Positions 41,184-48,418 of a stretch of 64,000 nucleotides of DNA are shown one piece after another. Each line of letters opens with the position of its first letter. The first letter of the stretch is position 1. The notes under the pieces were generated by a model, which saw only the letters and a program-made list of their open reading frames with translations, was not told the DNA's origin and made no database searches. The translations under genes and the position numbers were made by a program. This DNA comes from Nonomuraea gerenzanensis. GTDB taxonomy: Bacteria > Actinomycetota > Actinomycetes > Streptosporangiales > Streptosporangiaceae. The stretch covers positions 1,488,001 through 1,552,000 of the forward strand of contig NZ_CP084058.1 of assembly GCF_020215645.1 (NCBI RefSeq), in the 5' to 3' direction.

Positions 41184-42041
41184 TCACAGGACCGCGTGCT
41201 CGGCACTCCCCGGAAAGTCGGTGCCGACCGCGACCCGCTCGCCCGCGTCGAACTCCGCCCGCAGCAGGCGGAGCTTGGCGTCGATCCGGCGGTGCGCGTC
41301 GCTGCCGAGCACGAGCCAGTGGCGGGGCCGCCCGGCGGTGACCGCGTCGTACATCGCCGCCGCCGCCCGCACGGGATCGCCGGGGAACATCTCGGGGGTG
41401 AGCGTGCCCATCATGGCCCTGAACGCGCCCGCCGTCGCCGAGTAGTCGTCGATGGGCGCGCCGGAGGCCTTGGTACGGTGCTCGATGCCGGTGCGGAAGG
41501 ACCCCGGCTGCACGATCATCGCGTGCAGCCCGAGCGGCTCGATCTCCTGCCACAGCGCCTCGGTGAAGCCTTCGAGCGCGAACTTGCTGGCGGAGTAGTA
41601 GCCGTTGGCGGGCAGGCTCGCCAGGCCGTCCATCGAGGAGACGTTGACGACGATGCCCCGGCGCCGGGCGCGCATGCCGGGCAGCACGAGCCGGGTCAGG
41701 GCCACGGCACCGAAGAAGTTGACCTCGAACAGCCGGCGGTAGTCGCTCTCCTCCTGCTCCTCCAGGGCCCCGATGAAGTCGATGCCGGCGTTGTTGACCA
41801 GGACGTCGATGCCGCCGAAGCGCTCCTCGGCCTGCTTGACGCCGGCTGCGCGCTGCTGGGGGTCGGTCACGTCGAGGGGCAGGGCCAGGGCGGTGCTCGG
41901 GTGGCGGGCGGCCAGCTCGGTGGTGGCCCTGGTGCTGGAGGCGGTGACCACGGCCTGGTCGCCGCGGTCGAGGACGTACTCGGCGAGGGCCCGCCCGAGG
42001 CCGCTCGACGCGCCGGTGATGAGCCAGGTTCTGGGGTTCAT
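41184..42041 (-). CDS. SDR family oxidoreductase
   Basis: The 285-residue classical short-chain dehydrogenase has the cofactor loop TGASSGLG (9-16), NNAG (83-86), catalytic S136 and Y149-SAS-K153. The C-terminal extension with PGSFRTGIEHRTKASG fits the retinol-dehydrogenase-like group of actinomycete SDRs. ATG at 42041. It lies 15 bp downstream of a second SDR gene and is presumably co-transcribed from the promoter at about 42930. Confidence 0.92.
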   Translation of the reverse strand: MNPRTWLITGASSGLGRALAEYVLDRGDQAVVTASSTRATTELAARHPSTALALPLDVTDPQQRAAGVKQAEERFGGIDVLVNNAGIDFIGALEEQEESDYRRLFEVNFFGAVALTRLVLPGMRARRRGIVVNVSSMDGLASLPANGYYSASKFALEGFTEALWQEIEPLGLHAMIVQPGSFRTGIEHRTKASGAPIDDYSATAGAFRAMMGTLTPEMFPGDPVRAAAAMYDAVTAGRPRHWLVLGSDAHRRIDAKLRLLRAEFDAGERVAVGTDFPGSAEHAVL

Positions 42042-42056: not shown

Positions 42057-42899
42057 TCAGCGTTCGTCTGCGGGGTAGTCGGCGGAGCGGCTCACGGCGG
42101 CCCACCGCTCGGTCTCGGCCGCGCGCACCTCCCCGGCCTTCTGCGCGGCGGCCACGGCGTCGCTGCCGAGCAGCAGCCGCCGGGGCGGGTCCTCGTGGCC
42201 GACGACGTCGATGATGATCCTGGCCGCGCGCGCGGGGTCGCCGGGCTGGGCGCCGTCGCTCTCGCGCCGGTAGCGGTGCAGGGCGCCCACGGTCTGCTCG
42301 TAGTCGGGGCCGACGGCGTGCAGCTCCATGGACGAGCCCTGCCAGTCCGTACGGAACGCGCCCGGCTCCACGATGACGACCTTGACCCCGAAGGGCGCGA
42401 CCTCACTGGCCAGGACCTCGGAGAAGCCTTCGACGGCGAACTTCGCCGTCTGGTAGGCGCCCATGCCCGGGGTGCCGCCGACGCGTCCGCCCACGGAGGA
42501 GAACTGCACGAAGACGCCCGACCGCTGGGTGCGCAGGACGGGCAGGGCGGCCCTGGTGACGTTCACGACGCCGAAGAGGTTCGTCTCGATCTGGGCGCGG
42601 AAGTCCTCCTCCGCCATCTCCTCGATCGGCGCGCTGTTGCCGTAGCCGGCGTTGTTGACGACCACGTCGAGCCGGCCGAAGGCGTCGGTGGCCTCCTTGA
42701 CCGCCCGGGCGGCAGCGGCGGTGTCGGTCACGTCGAGCGCGACCGCCCGCGCCCGGTCACCGTGTCGGGCGACCAGGTCTTCGAGCTGCTTGGGGCTGCG
42801 CGCGGTGGCGACGACTCGATCGCCCGCTTCGAGGACGGCTTCGGTGAGGTGGCGGCCGAAGCCGCGTGACGCTCCGGTGATGAGCCAGGTCTTGGCCAT
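42057..42899 (-). CDS. SDR family oxidoreductase
   Basis: The 280-residue classical SDR has TGASRGFG (8-15), NNAGYGNS (82-89), catalytic Ser near 134 and Y149-QTA-K153. It is related in sequence to the downstream SDR and probably arose by duplication. ATG at 42899, the first gene of a two-gene unit. Its promoter region contains a 53-bp element also found in front of the TetR gene at 47328, so control by that TetR is likely. Confidence 0.92.
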   Translation of the reverse strand: MAKTWLITGASRGFGRHLTEAVLEAGDRVVATARSPKQLEDLVARHGDRARAVALDVTDTAAAARAVKEATDAFGRLDVVVNNAGYGNSAPIEEMAEEDFRAQIETNLFGVVNVTRAALPVLRTQRSGVFVQFSSVGGRVGGTPGMGAYQTAKFAVEGFSEVLASEVAPFGVKVVIVEPGAFRTDWQGSSMELHAVGPDYEQTVGALHRYRRESDGAQPGDPARAARIIIDVVGHEDPPRRLLLGSDAVAAAQKAGEVRAAETERWAAVSRSADYPADER

Positions 42900-42930
42900 G
42901 GGGATCTCCCTGATCGACAGTTCCTAACTG

Positions 42931-42983
42931 CCTCATTAATGTAGCACTTATAGAGATAAGAAGCTCATAAGCGTGACACAAGT
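42931..42983. promoter_or_regulatory. 53-bp operator-like element, copy A (SDR promoter)
   Basis: The element runs from CCTCATTAATGTAGCACTTA to GTGACACAAGT. It matches 47238-47290 at 41 of 53 positions without gaps. It includes two TGTxxCAC-like cores 32 bp apart (TGTAGCAC and CGTGACAC) around an AT-rich middle. It is unusually AT-rich for this DNA and sits 32-84 bp upstream of the SDR start. Confidence 0.75.
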
Positions 42984-42988
42984 CTCGG

Positions 42989-44416
42989 TCAACGGTCTCG
43001 GTAAGCCTCCAGCAGCCGCAGCCACACCTCGCTGATCGTGGGGAAGGCCGGTACGGCGTGCCAGAGCCGCTCGATGGGGATCTCGCCGACGATCGCCACC
43101 GTGGCGGAGTGCAGCAGCTCGGCCACGCCGGGCCCGGCGAAGGTGACGCCGACGACCGTGCGGCGCTCCGGGTCGATGAGGGCGCGCGCTCTGCCCTGGT
43201 AGCCGGGGTCGTGCTGGAGGGCGCCGGCGACGTGGCCGAGGTCGTAGTCCACGACGTCCACGCGGCGGCCGGTGTGTGCGGCCTCCATCGTTGTGAGGCC
43301 GACGCTCGCCACCTCGGGGTCGCTGAAGACGACCGCCGGTACGGCCGCGGTGTCGGCGGTGCCGGCGTGGGCGCTCCAGGGCCCGGTGTCCACGGGAGCC
43401 CCGGCGGCGCGGGCGGCGATGACGGCGCCCGCGATGCGGGCCTGGTACTTGCCCTGGTGGGTGAACAGGGCCCGCTGGTTGACGTCGCCCGCCGCGTACA
43501 ACCAGCCGCCGGGAGCGGCGGTGACGGTGTAGGTGTCGTCGGTGGTGAGCCAGTCCCCGGGAGGCAGGCCGACGCTTTCGAGGCCGAGGTCGCCGGTGCG
43601 CGGCGCGCGGCCGGTGGCGAAGAGGATCTCGTCCGCGCCGAGCCGGTCGCCGTCGGACAGGATCAGGTGCACCTCGCCCCCCGTACGGGCGGCGGTGGCC
43701 ACGGTCACGCCGAACCGCAGATCCACGCCCGCCTCTCGCAGGCGCTGCGCGACCAGCTCGCCCGCGAAGGGCTCCATCCTGGGCAGCAGGCCGCCGCCCC
43801 GCACGAGCAGGGTGACCGAGGAGCCGAGTGCCTGCCAGGCGGTGGCCATCTCGGTGGCCACGACGCCCGCGCCGACGATGACGAGCCGTCCGGGCGGCCG
43901 CCGCGCGCTGGTGGCCTCGCGGCTGGTCCAGGGGCGCAGGCCGGCGATCCACGGCAGGTCCGGCAGGGCCGCGCCGCTGCCGGTGCACACGGCCACGGCG
44001 TGCCGGGCCAGCAGGCGGACGGTGTCGCCGCCGGGGGTGGTCACGGCCACGCACCGGGGCCCGTCGAGGCGGCCGTGGCCGCGCTGGAGCTCGATCCCGG
44101 CCGACTTGAGCCATTCGACCTGGCCCTCGTCGTTCCAGTCGGCGGACATGCGGTCGCGGTGCGCCAGCACGGCGGCGGTGTCCAGCGCTCCGGCGGCCAG
44201 GCCGGGCACCCGGCCGGCCTCGGCACGCAGGAGCGCGGGCCGCAGCAGCGCCTTGCTCGGCTCGCACGCCCAGTACGAGCACTCGCCGCCGACGAGCTCG
44301 CTCTCCACGATGACGGTGCTCAGACCGGCGGCGGCCGTCCGGTCGGCGACGTTCTCGCCGACCGGACCGGCCCCGATCACGACCACGTCATAGGTACGGG
44401 TGTCTTCGATCGTCAC
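42989..44416 (-). CDS. FAD-dependent pyridine nucleotide-disulfide oxidoreductase
   Basis: The 475-residue flavoprotein has FAD loop VIGAGPVGENV (14-24), a redox-type pair C46-SYWA-C51 followed by EPSKALLRP, and a second Rossmann loop VIVGAGVVATEMA. GWLYAAGDVN gives the FAD ribityl-binding motif, and the C-terminal interface domain ends HAVPAFPTISEVWLRLLE. This is the mercuric/dihydrolipoamide-reductase-like branch, with an unusual Tyr-Trp between the cysteines. No N-terminal metal-binding domain is present. GTG at 44416. It lies in a probable operon with the VOC and hydrolase genes upstream. Confidence 0.88.
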   Translation of the reverse strand: MTIEDTRTYDVVVIGAGPVGENVADRTAAAGLSTVIVESELVGGECSYWACEPSKALLRPALLRAEAGRVPGLAAGALDTAAVLAHRDRMSADWNDEGQVEWLKSAGIELQRGHGRLDGPRCVAVTTPGGDTVRLLARHAVAVCTGSGAALPDLPWIAGLRPWTSREATSARRPPGRLVIVGAGVVATEMATAWQALGSSVTLLVRGGGLLPRMEPFAGELVAQRLREAGVDLRFGVTVATAARTGGEVHLILSDGDRLGADEILFATGRAPRTGDLGLESVGLPPGDWLTTDDTYTVTAAPGGWLYAAGDVNQRALFTHQGKYQARIAGAVIAARAAGAPVDTGPWSAHAGTADTAAVPAVVFSDPEVASVGLTTMEAAHTGRRVDVVDYDLGHVAGALQHDPGYQGRARALIDPERRTVVGVTFAGPGVAELLHSATVAIVGEIPIERLWHAVPAFPTISEVWLRLLEAYRDR

Positions 44417-44447
44417 TGGTTCTCCATGGTGTGGTCGTGTCCCGGGG

Positions 44448-44894
44448 TCAGCGGCCGGGCAGCCGCTCGGTGATCTCCTGAAGGAACCAGCGGTTGCCGT
44501 CCGGGTCGGCGAACGAGGCGAAGGAGCCGTAGCTGGCGCGCTGCGGGTGCGGGCCCGGCACGCGCCCGGCGTCGCCGGCCTGGTGGAAGGCGCCCGTGGC
44601 GTCGTGGAACGGGCCGGTGACCTCGACACCGCGGCCGGCCAGCTCCCGCTGGGCCTGCTCGATGTCGGACACGATCAGGTGCAGCCCCTGCACAGAACCC
44701 GGCTCGGCGTCGGTGAGCCCTTCGCCGAAGATGATCGAGCAGCCGGAGCCCGGGGGAGTGACCTGGATGATCCGGTAACCGTCCTTGACGGGGAAGTCCG
44801 CGTCGAGGCGGAAGCCGAGCTGACCGGCGTAGAAGTCCCTGGCGCGGTCGGCGTCGGAGACGGGCAGCACGACGACTTCGAGCTTCATGTCCAT
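44448..44894 (-). CDS. VOC superfamily (glyoxalase/dioxygenase-like) protein
   Basis: This 148-residue protein has the paired beta-alpha-beta-beta-beta modules: LEVVVLPVSDADRARDFYAGQLGF at the start and GLHLIVSDIEQAQRELAGRG in the middle, closing with FASFADPDGNRWFLQEI. It may be a lyase, dioxygenase or resistance protein; metal ligands cannot be fixed by eye. ATG at 44894 (or 44888). It lies between the flavin reductase and an exported hydrolase on the same strand, which suggests a detoxification unit. Confidence 0.88.
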   Translation of the reverse strand: MDMKLEVVVLPVSDADRARDFYAGQLGFRLDADFPVKDGYRIIQVTPPGSGCSIIFGEGLTDAEPGSVQGLHLIVSDIEQAQRELAGRGVEVTGPFHDATGAFHQAGDAGRVPGPHPQRASYGSFASFADPDGNRWFLQEITERLPGR

Positions 44895-44915
44895 GGTGAT
44901 GATTCCTCTCTGCTG

Positions 44916-45734
44916 CTATCGGGTGGCCCGGGCGGCCTTCTCGATGACGCCGGCCACGGTCTTGGGGTGGGAGACGGCGACGGAGTGGGAGGCGCGGACC
45001 TCGGTGACGTGCGCGTCGGCGCGCTTGGCCATGAAGCGCTGCACCTCGGCGGGGATGTTGAGGTCCTGGGTGGTGACGATGTCCCAGCTCGGCTTGTCCC
45101 GCCAGGCGGCGGCCTCGGTCTTCTCCTCCAGGGCGGCCTGGGCGATGGGCCGCTGGGTGGCGGCCATCAGGGCGGCCTCGCGGGCCGGCACGTCGGCGGC
45201 GAACTGGTGGCGGAACTTGTCGGCCTTGATGTAGAGGTCGGTGCCGGTGCCGCCGCCGGGGAGCTTGACCGGCACGGGGTCCAGGGCGTCGGGCAGCGTG
45301 GAGCCGGGGAACTTGTTCGTCAGCTCCAGCGCGGTCTCGCCGGGGGCGGGCAGGAAGGCGGCCACGTAGACGAGGGCCTTGACGTCCGGGTCGTTCGCGC
45401 CGGCGACGCTGATGACCGAGCCGCCGTAGGAGTGGCCGACCAGGATCTTCGGCCCCTTGACATGCTCGAGGACGCTGCGCAGCGCGGCGGCGTCCTGGGC
45501 GGGGCCGCGCAGCGGGTTGGCCGCGGCGACGACCGGGTAGCCGTCCTTGCGCAGCTCCTCGATCACCCCGTTCCAGCTGGAGGCGTCGGCGAAGGCGCCG
45601 TGCTCCAGCACGACGGTCGGCTTGGCGGGCCCGGCCGCCGCGTGGGCGGGCCCGGGGATCGCGAGGGCGCCGATCGTGACGCCCGCCGACAGCACACCCA
45701 GCATGAGCCCGCGTACACCCTTGTTGCTGACCAC
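44916..45734 (-). CDS. Exported alpha/beta hydrolase
   Basis: The product is about 272 residues with a signal peptide (GLMLGVLSAGVTIGALAIPG then AHAAA). The hydrolase core has VVLEHGAFADASSW, the nucleophile elbow VGHSYGGS and a C-terminal ASHSVAVSHPKTVA with the His. It resembles the actinomycete hydrolases related to EstC/haloperoxidase-like proteins. GTG at 45734 is preferred to GTG 45752: an AAAGGGGAAA site precedes it. That start also places a 28-bp element exactly 70 bp upstream, as at the gene starting at 47084. Confidence 0.82.
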   Translation of the reverse strand: MVSNKGVRGLMLGVLSAGVTIGALAIPGPAHAAAGPAKPTVVLEHGAFADASSWNGVIEELRKDGYPVVAAANPLRGPAQDAAALRSVLEHVKGPKILVGHSYGGSVISVAGANDPDVKALVYVAAFLPAPGETALELTNKFPGSTLPDALDPVPVKLPGGGTGTDLYIKADKFRHQFAADVPAREAALMAATQRPIAQAALEEKTEAAAWRDKPSWDIVTTQDLNIPAEVQRFMAKRADAHVTEVRASHSVAVSHPKTVAGVIEKAARATR

Positions 45735-45803
45735 GACTATTTCCCCTTTCACGGAGGTTTCAGCGATCTGGTGTCATCACTGTCGTCCGGGAGGGGGCGT
45801 GGT

Positions 45804-45831
45804 CACATCCGTCGCATGACGGTCAGTCATG
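45804..45831. promoter_or_regulatory. 28-bp promoter element, copy 1 (before exported hydrolase)
   Basis: CACATCCGTCGCATGACGGT continues to TCAGTCATG. It matches 47154-47181 at 23 of 28 positions and contains the inverted repeat CATGAC-N5-GTCATG. It starts 70 bp upstream of the GTG at 45734, the same distance as copy 2 from its gene. Confidence 0.7.
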
Positions 45832-45974
45832 GGGCAGTCGTCCGGCGGGCGCCCGGCCAGGCATCAGTGCTGGCCGGCGGGCCGTACGGCCCTGCGTGGC
45901 GGTCCCGCGCAGGAGGTCCGCGCCTGGGCGGCCTAAGCCATTCAACGGTTCAGTCGGTGTCGCCGCGGAACGCC

Positions 45975-46007
45975 GACAGCCTGCCGGACCGGATCCGGCA
46001 GGCTGTC
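45975..46007 (-). terminator. Strong hairpin terminator after the Tat-exported hydrolase
   Basis: GACAGCCTGCCGGA (45975-45988) pairs perfectly over 14 bp with TCCGGCAGGCTGTC (45994-46007) around a 5-base loop. It lies 25 bp past the stop of the gene that ends at 46032. The remaining intergenic DNA up to 45804 shows no gene. Confidence 0.82.
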
Positions 46008-46031
46008 TCGGCGTAGGGCCGTGGCGGGTCG

Positions 46032-47084
46032 TCAGAGGTGGTCGACGTCCACGACGGCCTGGGCGAAGGCCGTGGGGGCCTCCTGGGGCAGGTCGTGGCC
46101 GATGCCCGCCAGCCTGCGGTACTCGTAGGCGCCGGTGAACATGCTGCGGTAACCGCTGTCGTCCGGCCCCGTGAAGGGGTCGAGCTCGGCGTCGAGCACG
46201 ATGGTCGGCACCTTGACGACCGGCCGCGCCTGCAGCCGCCGCTCGACGGCGTCGTAACGGCGCTCGCCCTCGGCCAGGCTCAGCCGCCAGCGGTAGTTGT
46301 GGAGCACGATGGCGGCGTAGTCGGGGTTGTCGAAGGCGGCGGCCGTACGGTCGAAGGTGGCGTCGTCGAACTTCCACGTCGGGGAGACGGTGTCCCAGAC
46401 CAGGCGGGACAGCTCACGGCGCTTGGTCCGGTCGTCCATCGCCTTCCTGCCCCGCTCGGTGGCGAAGTAGTACTGGTACCACCAGGCGTACTCGGCCTTG
46501 GGCGGCAGCGGTTCGAGGTTGGCCGCCAGGTTCGTGATGAGGTAGCCGCTCACCGACACCAGCGCCTTGCACCGCTGCGGCCACAGGGCGGCGATGACGT
46601 CGGCGGTGCGCGAGCCCCAGTCGAAGCCGGCGAGCACCGCCTTGTCGATCTTGAGGGCGTCCATCAGGGCCACGATGTCGAGCGCGATGGCCGACTGCTG
46701 CGCGTTGCGGAAGGTCTTGGCGGACACGAACCGCGTCGTGCCGTGCCCGCGCAGGTAGGGCACGATCACCCGGTAGCCCCGCGCCGCCAGCAGCGGGGCG
46801 ACGTCCACGAAGCTGTGGATGTCGTACGGCCAGCCGTGCAGGCAGATGACCACGGGCCCGTGGGCCGGCCCCGCCTCGGCGTAACCGATGTCCAGCACCC
46901 CGGCCCTGACCTGCTTCAGCTTTCCGAAAGAGGTGTGTGTCCCCGGCGTGACCGGCGGCACCGTCGGTGCGGTGCGGGGCGTGGTGGCGGAGGCGGCCGG
47001 GAGCGCCTGGAAGCCCGCCAGCGAGGCGGCTGTCGCGCCGGCGGCCAGCCCGAGGGTCTTGCCGAAAGTGCGCCTGTTCATCAT
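46032..47084 (-). CDS. Tat-exported alpha/beta hydrolase, epoxide-hydrolase-like
   Basis: The 350-residue precursor has a twin-arginine leader (NRRTFGKTLGLAAG). The core reads VICLHGWPYDIHSFVDVAPL, VPYLRGHGTTRF, the GFDWGS elbow with an Asp nucleophile, and GIGHDLPQEAP with the His. An Asp at the elbow points to epoxide hydrolase or haloalkane dehalogenase chemistry rather than esterase. ATG at 47084 (a second at 47081). It is divergent from the TetR gene at 47328, with both the 28-bp and 53-bp elements in the spacer, so TetR control is likely. Confidence 0.85.
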   Translation of the reverse strand: MMNRRTFGKTLGLAAGATAASLAGFQALPAASATTPRTAPTVPPVTPGTHTSFGKLKQVRAGVLDIGYAEAGPAHGPVVICLHGWPYDIHSFVDVAPLLAARGYRVIVPYLRGHGTTRFVSAKTFRNAQQSAIALDIVALMDALKIDKAVLAGFDWGSRTADVIAALWPQRCKALVSVSGYLITNLAANLEPLPPKAEYAWWYQYYFATERGRKAMDDRTKRRELSRLVWDTVSPTWKFDDATFDRTAAAFDNPDYAAIVLHNYRWRLSLAEGERRYDAVERRLQARPVVKVPTIVLDAELDPFTGPDDSGYRSMFTGAYEYRRLAGIGHDLPQEAPTAFAQAVVDVDHL

Positions 47085-47153
47085 GAGTGGTCCTCCCTGT
47101 CATGTCGCCGGGAAAATGCGACATCGTCCACTGTTTCCGGCGGGAGAATCCGG

Positions 47154-47181
47154 CACATCAGTCACATGACGGTAAGACACG
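47154..47181. promoter_or_regulatory. 28-bp promoter element, copy 2 (before Tat-exported hydrolase)
   Basis: CACATCAGTCACATGACGGT continues to AAGACACG, matching 45804-45831 at 23 of 28 positions. It begins 70 bp upstream of the ATG at 47084, exactly the spacing of copy 1. Confidence 0.7.
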
Positions 47182-47237
47182 TAGAGCGGTGACCCTCACG
47201 CGGGGGGCCGTTCTCGTCGGGGTCCATCCCATAAGAG

Positions 47238-47290
47238 CCTCGTTAATGTAACACTTATATATATAACATCCTCCTCAATGTGACACATGT
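47238..47290. promoter_or_regulatory. 53-bp operator-like element, copy B (TetR promoter)
   Basis: The element runs from CCTCGTTAATGTAACACTTA to GTGACACATGT, matching 42931-42983 at 41 of 53 positions. TGTAACAC and TGTGACAC cores are 32 bp apart around TTATATATATAA. It lies 38-90 bp upstream of the TetR start. Confidence 0.75.
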
Positions 47291-47327
47291 ATGCGGGATG
47301 TGCTACGGCGGGGGGTATCTTGGTGGC

Positions 47328-47879
47328 GTGAGAGCAGACGCGGCACGCAACCTTGAACGTGTCCTGAGCACCGGCGCCCGAATGCTGGCCGATGACCCCT
47401 CGGTGACGATCGCCGCCATCGCCGCGGCGGCGGGAGTGGACCGGCGCACGGTCTACCGCCGCTTCGCCTCCCGCGAGGAGCTGATGGCCGCCGTCTACGG
47501 AGCGCGCTACGACGCGGTGGAGGAGGCCGTCGCCGCCGCCCGGTTGCGCGAGGCCCCGGTCGCCGTCGCGTTGCACCGCTATGTCGAGGGGATCGTCGCC
47601 GTCAACCGCAAGTGGCCGGTCGAGACCAGCCGCATGTTGCGCGAGGAGACGCTCCGCGAGCGCCGCAACCGGCTGATCGAGGAGGTGGACGCCTTTCTGC
47701 GGCGTGCCACCGAGGAGGGGCTGCTCCGCTCCGACCTGCCGCCGGGCTGGGTGGCGACGATCCTGCCGCCGCTGATGGAGCAGGCCGCCGACGACCTGCC
47801 CGAACTGAGTGCCGCGCAGGCCGCCGACGTGGTGGTGGACACGCTGCTGCGCGGCGCCGGTGCCCCGCAGTCCCGCTGA
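47328..47879 (+). CDS. TetR/AcrR family transcriptional regulator
   Basis: The 183-residue protein has an N-terminal helix (RADAARNLERVLSTGARMLA) and the helix-turn-helix VTIAAIAAAAGVDRRTVYRRFASREEL. A helical ligand domain follows. GTG at 47328 starts at RADAARN, the normal beginning of this class. It sits beside copy B of the 53-bp element and 4.4 kb from copy A, so it is the best candidate regulator for both its own promoter and the SDR unit. The inducer is unknown. Confidence 0.9.
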   Translation: MRADAARNLERVLSTGARMLADDPSVTIAAIAAAAGVDRRTVYRRFASREELMAAVYGARYDAVEEAVAAARLREAPVAVALHRYVEGIVAVNRKWPVETSRMLREETLRERRNRLIEEVDAFLRRATEEGLLRSDLPPGWVATILPPLMEQAADDLPELSAAQAADVVVDTLLRGAGAPQSR

Positions 47880-47884
47880 CCCGT

Positions 47885-47947
47885 CGCGTCACCACCTTGA
47901 CAGGTGACGCGAGCGATGCCAACATCGTCACCAGTTAAGTCGGTGAC
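47885..47947 (+). promoter_or_regulatory. Two GTCACC-N9-GGTGAC operators around a TTGACA promoter (ohr)
   Basis: GTCACC-N9-GGTGAC occurs at 47888-47908 and again at 47927-47947, with identical spacing and 39 bp between copies; in the first the arms extend to CGCGTCACC/GGTGACGCG. The first spacer holds a perfect -35 box TTGACA (47897-47902), with CAACAT 17 bp on as a possible -10. A repressor bound to both sites would block this promoter. Confidence 0.7.
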
Positions 47948-47992
47948 GCAAGAGGTGCTTCCCGGCGTACCCGCTCAGAAAGGGAGATAGCC

Positions 47993-48418
47993 ATGGCTGT
48001 CAGCTACACCGGGGTCGTCACCGTCACGGGCGAGGGTCGCAACGGCGGCCGGATCCAGGCCGACGACGGCATGCTGGACACCACGCTCGCCATCCCGAAG
48101 GAGCTGGGCGGTGCGGGCGGCGCCACCAATCCCGAGCAGCTCTTCGCCGCCGGCTGGGGCGCCTGCTTCCTCGGCGCGGTCAGGAGGGCGGCGGCGCAGC
48201 GCAAGATCAAGCTGACGAGCACCGCCATCACGGTCGAGGCGACGCTGAACCACGGCGAGGACGGCGAGTTCGGCCTCAGCGCGGTGCTCAACCTGGAGCT
48301 CGGCGGCGTGGACCAGCCGACGGCCGAGGAGCTCGGCGCGGCGGCCCACCAGCTGTGCCCCTACTCCAAGGCGACCCGCGGCAACATCCCGGTCACCATC
48401 AACGCCAAGGCCGCCTGA
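47993..48418 (+). CDS. ohr: Organic hydroperoxide resistance protein (Ohr/OsmC family)
   Basis: The 141-residue thiol peroxidase has the two Ohr cysteines, C58 in GWGACFLGAV and C122 in HQLCPYSKATRGN, and the N-terminal TVTGEGRNGGRI strand. It reduces organic peroxides with lipoylated reductants in the cytoplasm. ATG at 47993 has GGGAGA 7-12 bases upstream. The upstream paired palindromes fit peroxide-responsive repression, although no OhrR gene is adjacent; the TetR just upstream is one candidate. Confidence 0.93.
   Translation: MAVSYTGVVTVTGEGRNGGRIQADDGMLDTTLAIPKELGGAGGATNPEQLFAAGWGACFLGAVRRAAAQRKIKLTSTAITVEATLNHGEDGEFGLSAVLNLELGGVDQPTAEELGAAAHQLCPYSKATRGNIPVTINAKAA

Follow-up and report, generated by a model that had tools for sequence, protein, structure and literature searches.

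A duplicated 26-bp dyad before a short-chain dehydrogenase gene and a TetR-family gene of Nonomuraea gerenzanensis, a putative operator shared with TetR loci of other actinobacterial genera

The window analysed here, a stretch of 64,000 nucleotides from the genome of Nonomuraea gerenzanensis, carries a gene for a TetR-family regulator and a pair of short-chain dehydrogenase genes, SDR1 and SDR2, that are probably expressed in one transcript. Four further genes lie between two copies of a conserved site, so that each end of the block has a site of its own (Table 1). The order of SDR pair, hydrolase and TetR gene reported in an initial annotation of the sequence is correct. The GTG start of tetR is conserved in an alignment of 21 orthologues, and the twin-arginine (Tat) signal of the hydrolase divergent from it was read by eye from the N-terminus. 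The Tat-type hydrolase gene is followed by a strong hairpin (-50.7 kcal/mol, z -6.75) that has no T-run and stands between it and the three genes at 42989-45752. Consequently, these three genes may form a separate unit outside TetR control.

Table 1. Genes and putative regulatory sites of the locus, in window positions.
Feature	Position	Strand	Evidence
SDR2, 15 bp downstream of SDR1	41184..42041	-	
SDR1, PRK08263/PRK06180-like short-chain dehydrogenase, best-supported target	42057..42899	-	Site before relative in 19/19 genomes
O1, SDR promoter: 26-bp dyad TAACTGCCTCATTAATGTAGCACTTA	42925..42950	+	PWM 53.2; ≤3 mismatches only here and at one other place in own genome
Candidate SDR1 promoter (TTGTGT, 17 bp, TATCTC), between and under O2 and O1	42953..42981	-	Read by eye; sigma-70 scan without match
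O2, SDR promoter: weak site at +32 from O1, containing the second core of the initial annotation	42957..42982	+	PWM 5.7
Pyridine nucleotide-disulphide oxidoreductase, between the two sites	42989-44416	-	
Glyoxalase-like gene, between the two sites	44448-44894	-	
Alpha/beta hydrolase, between the two sites	44916-45752	-	
Alpha/beta hydrolase, Tat-like signal, divergent from tetR	46032..47084	-	Abhydrolase_1 80.9 bits
O1 between hydrolase and tetR: TAAGAGCCTCGTTAATGTAACACTTA	47232..47257	+	PWM 39.4 (site itself in the PWM training set); 3 mismatches to the 26-mer
O2, tetR side: weaker site at +32 from O1	47264..47289	+	PWM 21.4
Candidate tetR -10 box, TATCTT, 12 bp upstream of GTG	47316..47321	+	Own reading
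TetR-family regulator, 183 aa from GTG 47328	47328..47879	+	TetR_N (PF00440) 37.4 bits, cut-off 24

An ungapped alignment of 42931-42983 with 47238-47290 gives 41 identities in 53 positions. This likeness, claimed in the initial annotation, is borne out by resampling: among 20,000 pairs with the neighbour-base make-up of the copies, the mean was 15.1 and the maximum 28. Each other excepted, the copies find at most 29 matches in any 53-mer of the window, on either strand. They were also described as AT-rich islands in GC-rich DNA, and they are indeed the top two 53-bp stretches for AT content in a window of 73% GC. The motif AATGTNNCACWT, at no more than one mismatch, has five matches where 0.54 are expected, with four of the five inside the two copies.

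The better unit, however, is not the 53-bp element as originally bounded, but a 26-bp site. Its boundary was set by comparing, in a single orientation, the DNA upstream of tetR at 23 loci of the genus (22 being close orthologues). In those with an intact start region, conservation starts 6 bp further left (42925-42950 and 47232-47257), and the site is kept where the adjoining DNA diverges. Across genera the consensus is TAACTGTCACATCAATGTAGCACTTA, drawn from 77 distinct sites (18 training sites, plus sites at other loci scoring at least 28). Compared with its own reverse complement, this consensus agrees at 9 of 13 symmetric pairs, a value reached by 0.16% of shuffles. It is an imperfect dyad, and the TGTxxCAC core noted earlier is consequently one dyad half. 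Of the two such cores proposed for each copy, the second is part of a weaker second site; in the SDR copy it is weak, with a PWM score of 5.7 against 53.2 for the first. Taken as a unit, the two-core pattern is no commoner than chance (4 matches at 3 mismatches, against 3.37 expected), and we rejected it.

The spacing between the dyad (O1) and the second site (O2) corresponds to about three helical turns. Within the genus, the mean PWM score of SDR-side sites (n = 12) has a further peak at +32, where it is -6.0 against a background of -42.5 (sd 6.9); for tetR-side sites (n = 17) it is -9.0 there, against -42.2 (sd 5.6), with three shared sites counted in both sets. The second site is absent in some cases, such as G046 (-55.1) and the tetR side of G010 (-40.0). 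For 63 sites from other genera, +32 is once more the highest-scoring of the downstream offsets that do not overlap the site (-19.8, where the highest of 200 shuffles reaches -36.0); the overlapping offsets +11 and -13 score about equally. Further, the tetR-side sites of G010 and G049 lie some 31 bp nearer to tetR and resemble the left half of O1 joined to the right half of O2, which we read as the probable result of a deletion between the two repeats. In three related orthologues whose recognition helix carries RTTVH in place of RRTVY, the ends of the site are changed in all three cases, which suggests direct recognition by TetR, albeit from no more than three kindred examples.

The initial annotation had called for a genome-wide search. 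Run on the organism's own genome (12.07 Mb), it found two copies only for the 26-mer at up to three mismatches (the first on both strands), with no third site and no random spread. A genome-wide repeat is thus rejected. The corresponding control matched nowhere in the 54 genomes of the genus. A 17-mer at up to three mismatches matched four places in the own genome: perfectly at both copies, and otherwise at the tetR copy's second site and at one further place with three mismatches. The reversed 17-mer control matched 12 places at the same tolerance, so perfect matches alone count.

Within the genus, the site follows the regulator closely. It occurs in 19 of the 54 genomes, all of them among the 22 that have a TetR orthologue (E ≤ 3.4e-52), and in 0 of the 32 that lack one at that threshold (hypergeometric value 8e-12, a figure that ignores kinship). 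Most sites are physically linked to tetR. Three genomes with an orthologue gave no match to the 26-mer: G047 and G036 have diverged sites, and G050 has none in the examined stretch, which ended before SDR1. One three-mismatch site, on contig 50 of G009, is not accompanied by any relative of the window genes and may be due to chance.

The association extends to other genera. The best 80 of 323 relatives in a TetR-alignment scan yielded 79 loci from Nonomuraea (11), Microbispora, Streptosporangium, Actinoallomurus, Actinomadura, Nocardia, Streptomyces, Amycolatopsis, Kutzneria, Saccharopolyspora and others. A PWM trained on Nonomuraea sites only, applied at a threshold score of 18, found a site at 75 of these 79 loci and none at the other four. 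The reversed PWM found 0, and 20 column-permuted PWMs found a mean of 0.05 and a maximum of 1. Outside Nonomuraea, 64 of 68 loci have a site and 52 of 68 have it within 160 bp of tetR, where it mostly starts 94-97 bp before the gene; in the full set of 79, most loci with a site there have it 70-97 bp before tetR. Seven loci of more distant TetR relatives contained no PWM site.

Whole genomes give a similar picture. In 23 genomes of other genera, a strict pattern found 18 sites in 18 genomes (control 0), all coinciding with sites at TetR loci; five of the 23 had no site at three mismatches. Class-wide, a shorter pattern with zero or one mismatch found five sites in four genomes, and all four fall within the 10 genomes that have a close TetR relative. 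At two mismatches this pattern matched in 25 of 394 genomes and its reversed control in more (over 30), so these matches were set aside as noise. Relatives of the regulator at E ≤ 1e-20 number 1158 proteins, which, being unsorted by clade, is an upper figure for the clade.

Gene order between the two sites is variable. SDR1 and tetR are adjacent and divergent, with a single site between them, in G051, G044, G009, G035, G031 and G012 (G047 has a diverged version of it), and with two close sites in G010. One to four genes, encoding hydrolases, a glyoxalase and a flavoprotein, separate an SDR-side from a tetR-side site in G000, G004, G024, G015, G049 and G002. G045 and G046 have genes in between, but a tetR-side site scoring at least 8 was not found. 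SDR-side or shared sites score 46-53 in 12 close genomes and tetR-side sites 9-44 in 11, values that are not independent of the PWM, whose training set includes many of these sites. On a TetR gene tree of 36 rows, the state with genes between is clustered and needs about six changes, three of them forced by well-supported branches. The short sequences did not date the duplication: the window copies are as alike (45/59) as the SDR copy and its counterpart in G004 (45/59), and the sites do not group clearly by position.

The genes beside the site were tallied for sites scoring at least 24 in the 79 loci, with the nearest genes taken by a simple ORF rule that misses some genes and counts a gene flanked by two sites twice. 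The resulting site-gene pairs involve TetR (51), an aldehyde-dehydrogenase-like protein of 480 aa (37), SDR1 (22), the Tat-type hydrolase (15), a DHA2-type exporter (12), a 920-aa protein (3) and three singletons. One scanned member each supplied the names of the dehydrogenase-like and the exporter group; the former fell below every curated cut-off shown, and the latter passed TIGR00711 (236.9 against 230.2 bits).

On these comparisons, SDR1 is the best-supported candidate target of TetR. The SDR1 relatives preceded by the site in all 19 site-bearing genomes of the genus share 58-70% identity with it in G031, G012 and G035 and at least 84% in the rest. In G040, SDR1 and its site are 2 Mb away from tetR; another unlinked site stands about 50 bp before an exporter that is 84% identical to the tetR-adjoining exporter of a Streptomyces locus. 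The strongest evidence for action in trans comes from these unlinked SDR1 and exporter sites. For the tetR-side site of the window, the Tat-type hydrolase is a likely target. Sigma-70 and terminator scans found nothing, including no promoter in the SDR1 upstream region. The TATCTT hexamer before tetR would point to a leaderless tetR transcript; similar hexamers stand at -12 or -13 in 19 of the 79 loci and are not general.

We consider it highly probable that the duplicated element serves as operator region for the TetR protein encoded at 47328-47879, which would repress SDR1-SDR2, tetR itself and probably the hydrolase until released by a ligand. A TetR dimer would bind the O1 dyad and, more weakly, O2, on the same face of the helix, either at higher dose or cooperatively. 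Since the sites of the SDR copy cover the probable promoter, we propose that TetR represses SDR1-SDR2. At the other copy, tetR itself would be repressed, and probably the divergent hydrolase. A small molecule would then release TetR and lift repression; given the enzymes encoded, it is perhaps an aldehyde, ketone or ester. A small TetR regulon covering both copies, as the initial annotation had proposed, gains comparative support from a site that is confined to the TetR clade and stands before tetR and enzyme or exporter genes. The system appears to be of an ordinary kind, an autoregulated TetR detoxification regulon, and as such is well supported by genome comparison.

It is improbable, although not negligibly so, that the element is instead a conserved promoter, or the operator of another regulator, that serves both genes with TetR as a mere neighbour. 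The element does sit at promoter positions, and most sites are tetR-linked, which would leave them open to use by a different factor of the same genomes. Against this stand the dyad symmetry, the empty record of the 32 genus genomes without the orthologue, the site at both the unlinked SDR1 and the unlinked exporter of G040, the restriction of strict sites to the TetR locus in the 23 genomes of other genera, and the altered sites that accompany the three RTTVH helix variants.

We give very little credence to a mobile or recombinational repeat that flanks an inserted gene block and has no regulatory role. The four genes of the window do lie between two direct copies, and relatives are without some or all of them. 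However, there are just two copies in 12 Mb, and the site is conserved where the neighbouring DNA is not. Other genera have single copies at a fixed distance before tetR with no inserted genes, which largely refutes the idea. Chance similarity of two AT-rich stretches, conceivable as the copies are the most AT-rich 53-mers of the window, was rejected as vanishingly improbable on the resampled maximum of 28 and is refuted by conservation in other genera.

Beyond an operator for TetR, we raise a broader reading that seems to us possible, though somewhat doubtful. On this view the TetR regulon, not described before, would extend across the actinobacteria and keep a single operator while its outputs (SDR, aldehyde dehydrogenase, DHA2 exporter, hydrolase) are exchangeable, and duplicated operators would delimit a slot between regulator and target that detoxification genes enter and leave. 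If this were true, new genes could come under an existing switch. The analysis also yields a testable operator and target set for this TetR clade.

No name for this clade was found, and no description of the operator was found in the open-access papers searched. Open-access texts that contain the operator strings concern, judging by their titles, zebrafish, mouse, human-cell, plant-marker and nasal-Staphylococcus work. Among NCBIfam models, the TetR-type families MftR, ScbR and SlmA matched at low score, far below their curated cut-offs (31.3 against 224.9, 24.4 against 150 and 21.5 against 120 bits), and were rejected as equivalogs.

LfrR is the repressor of the exporter LfrA. It is also the nearest solved structure by sequence (PDB 2v57), a TetR-family protein matching query residues 8-173 (E 2.5e-9); the match is distant, at 40.8 bits, and the likeness is one of protein sequence. 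SCO3201 of Streptomyces coelicolor offers a partial parallel. It is reported to be a TetR-family regulator with a palindromic site and to have FabG-like SDR genes among those affected (PMC7324645). In contrast, the site given there, TGGCAGATTCTGCCA, is unlike the 26-bp dyad described here when compared by eye.

The arrangement is close to that of the divergent TetR regulators of Streptomyces. When a divergent neighbour is less than 200 bp away, a TetR-family regulator is reported usually to control it, and several palindromes are possible (Ahn et al. 2012, PMC3511530). There, too, tetR is divergent from an enzyme gene, with palindromic and sometimes multiple intergenic operators, autoregulation is expected and oxidoreductases are frequent neighbours. 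A putative divergent operator of this kind is present here, with 47232-47257 between hydrolase and tetR, and with one site between SDR1 and tetR in G051, G044 and G009. Measured against this rule, our locus differs in two respects: the divergent neighbour is 243 bp away (47084 to 47328), and the conserved candidate target, SDR1, lies 4.4 kb away with its own operator copy, and 2 Mb away in one relative. For target prediction, the lesson is that a TetR regulator's conserved target need not be its closest divergent gene.

A short distance 5′ of tetR, the TetR-family regulator gene, lies a GTGCTAC element that resembles an inverted half-site and occurs at a similar position upstream of tetR in many orthologues; it may represent a third contact. 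Downstream of tetR, a separate stretch 5′ of an Ohr/OsmC-type gene contains GTCACC/GGTGAC inverted repeats, also seen at loci L008 and L012, and looks like an operator for a regulator other than TetR. Directly 3′ of the Tat-type hydrolase gene, a highly stable hairpin (−50.7 kcal/mol, z −6.75) without a T-run is a possible terminator.

Positions of the features within the window
Feature	Coordinates
Hairpin	45960-46031
GTGCTAC element	47300-47306
Inverted-repeat stretch	47884-47955
Ohr/OsmC-type gene	47993-48418

At locus L066 in G040, a genome of the same genus, a flavoprotein relative is located 5′ of the unlinked short-chain dehydrogenase gene SDR1. Because its match is split into two pieces of differing identity (61% and 85%), this gene may be broken. 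Some Streptomyces loci (L110, L123, L126 and L136) carry two TetR genes of the same clade, separated by 6-8 kb and each with its own site a short way upstream; cross-regulation between the paired genes is possible.
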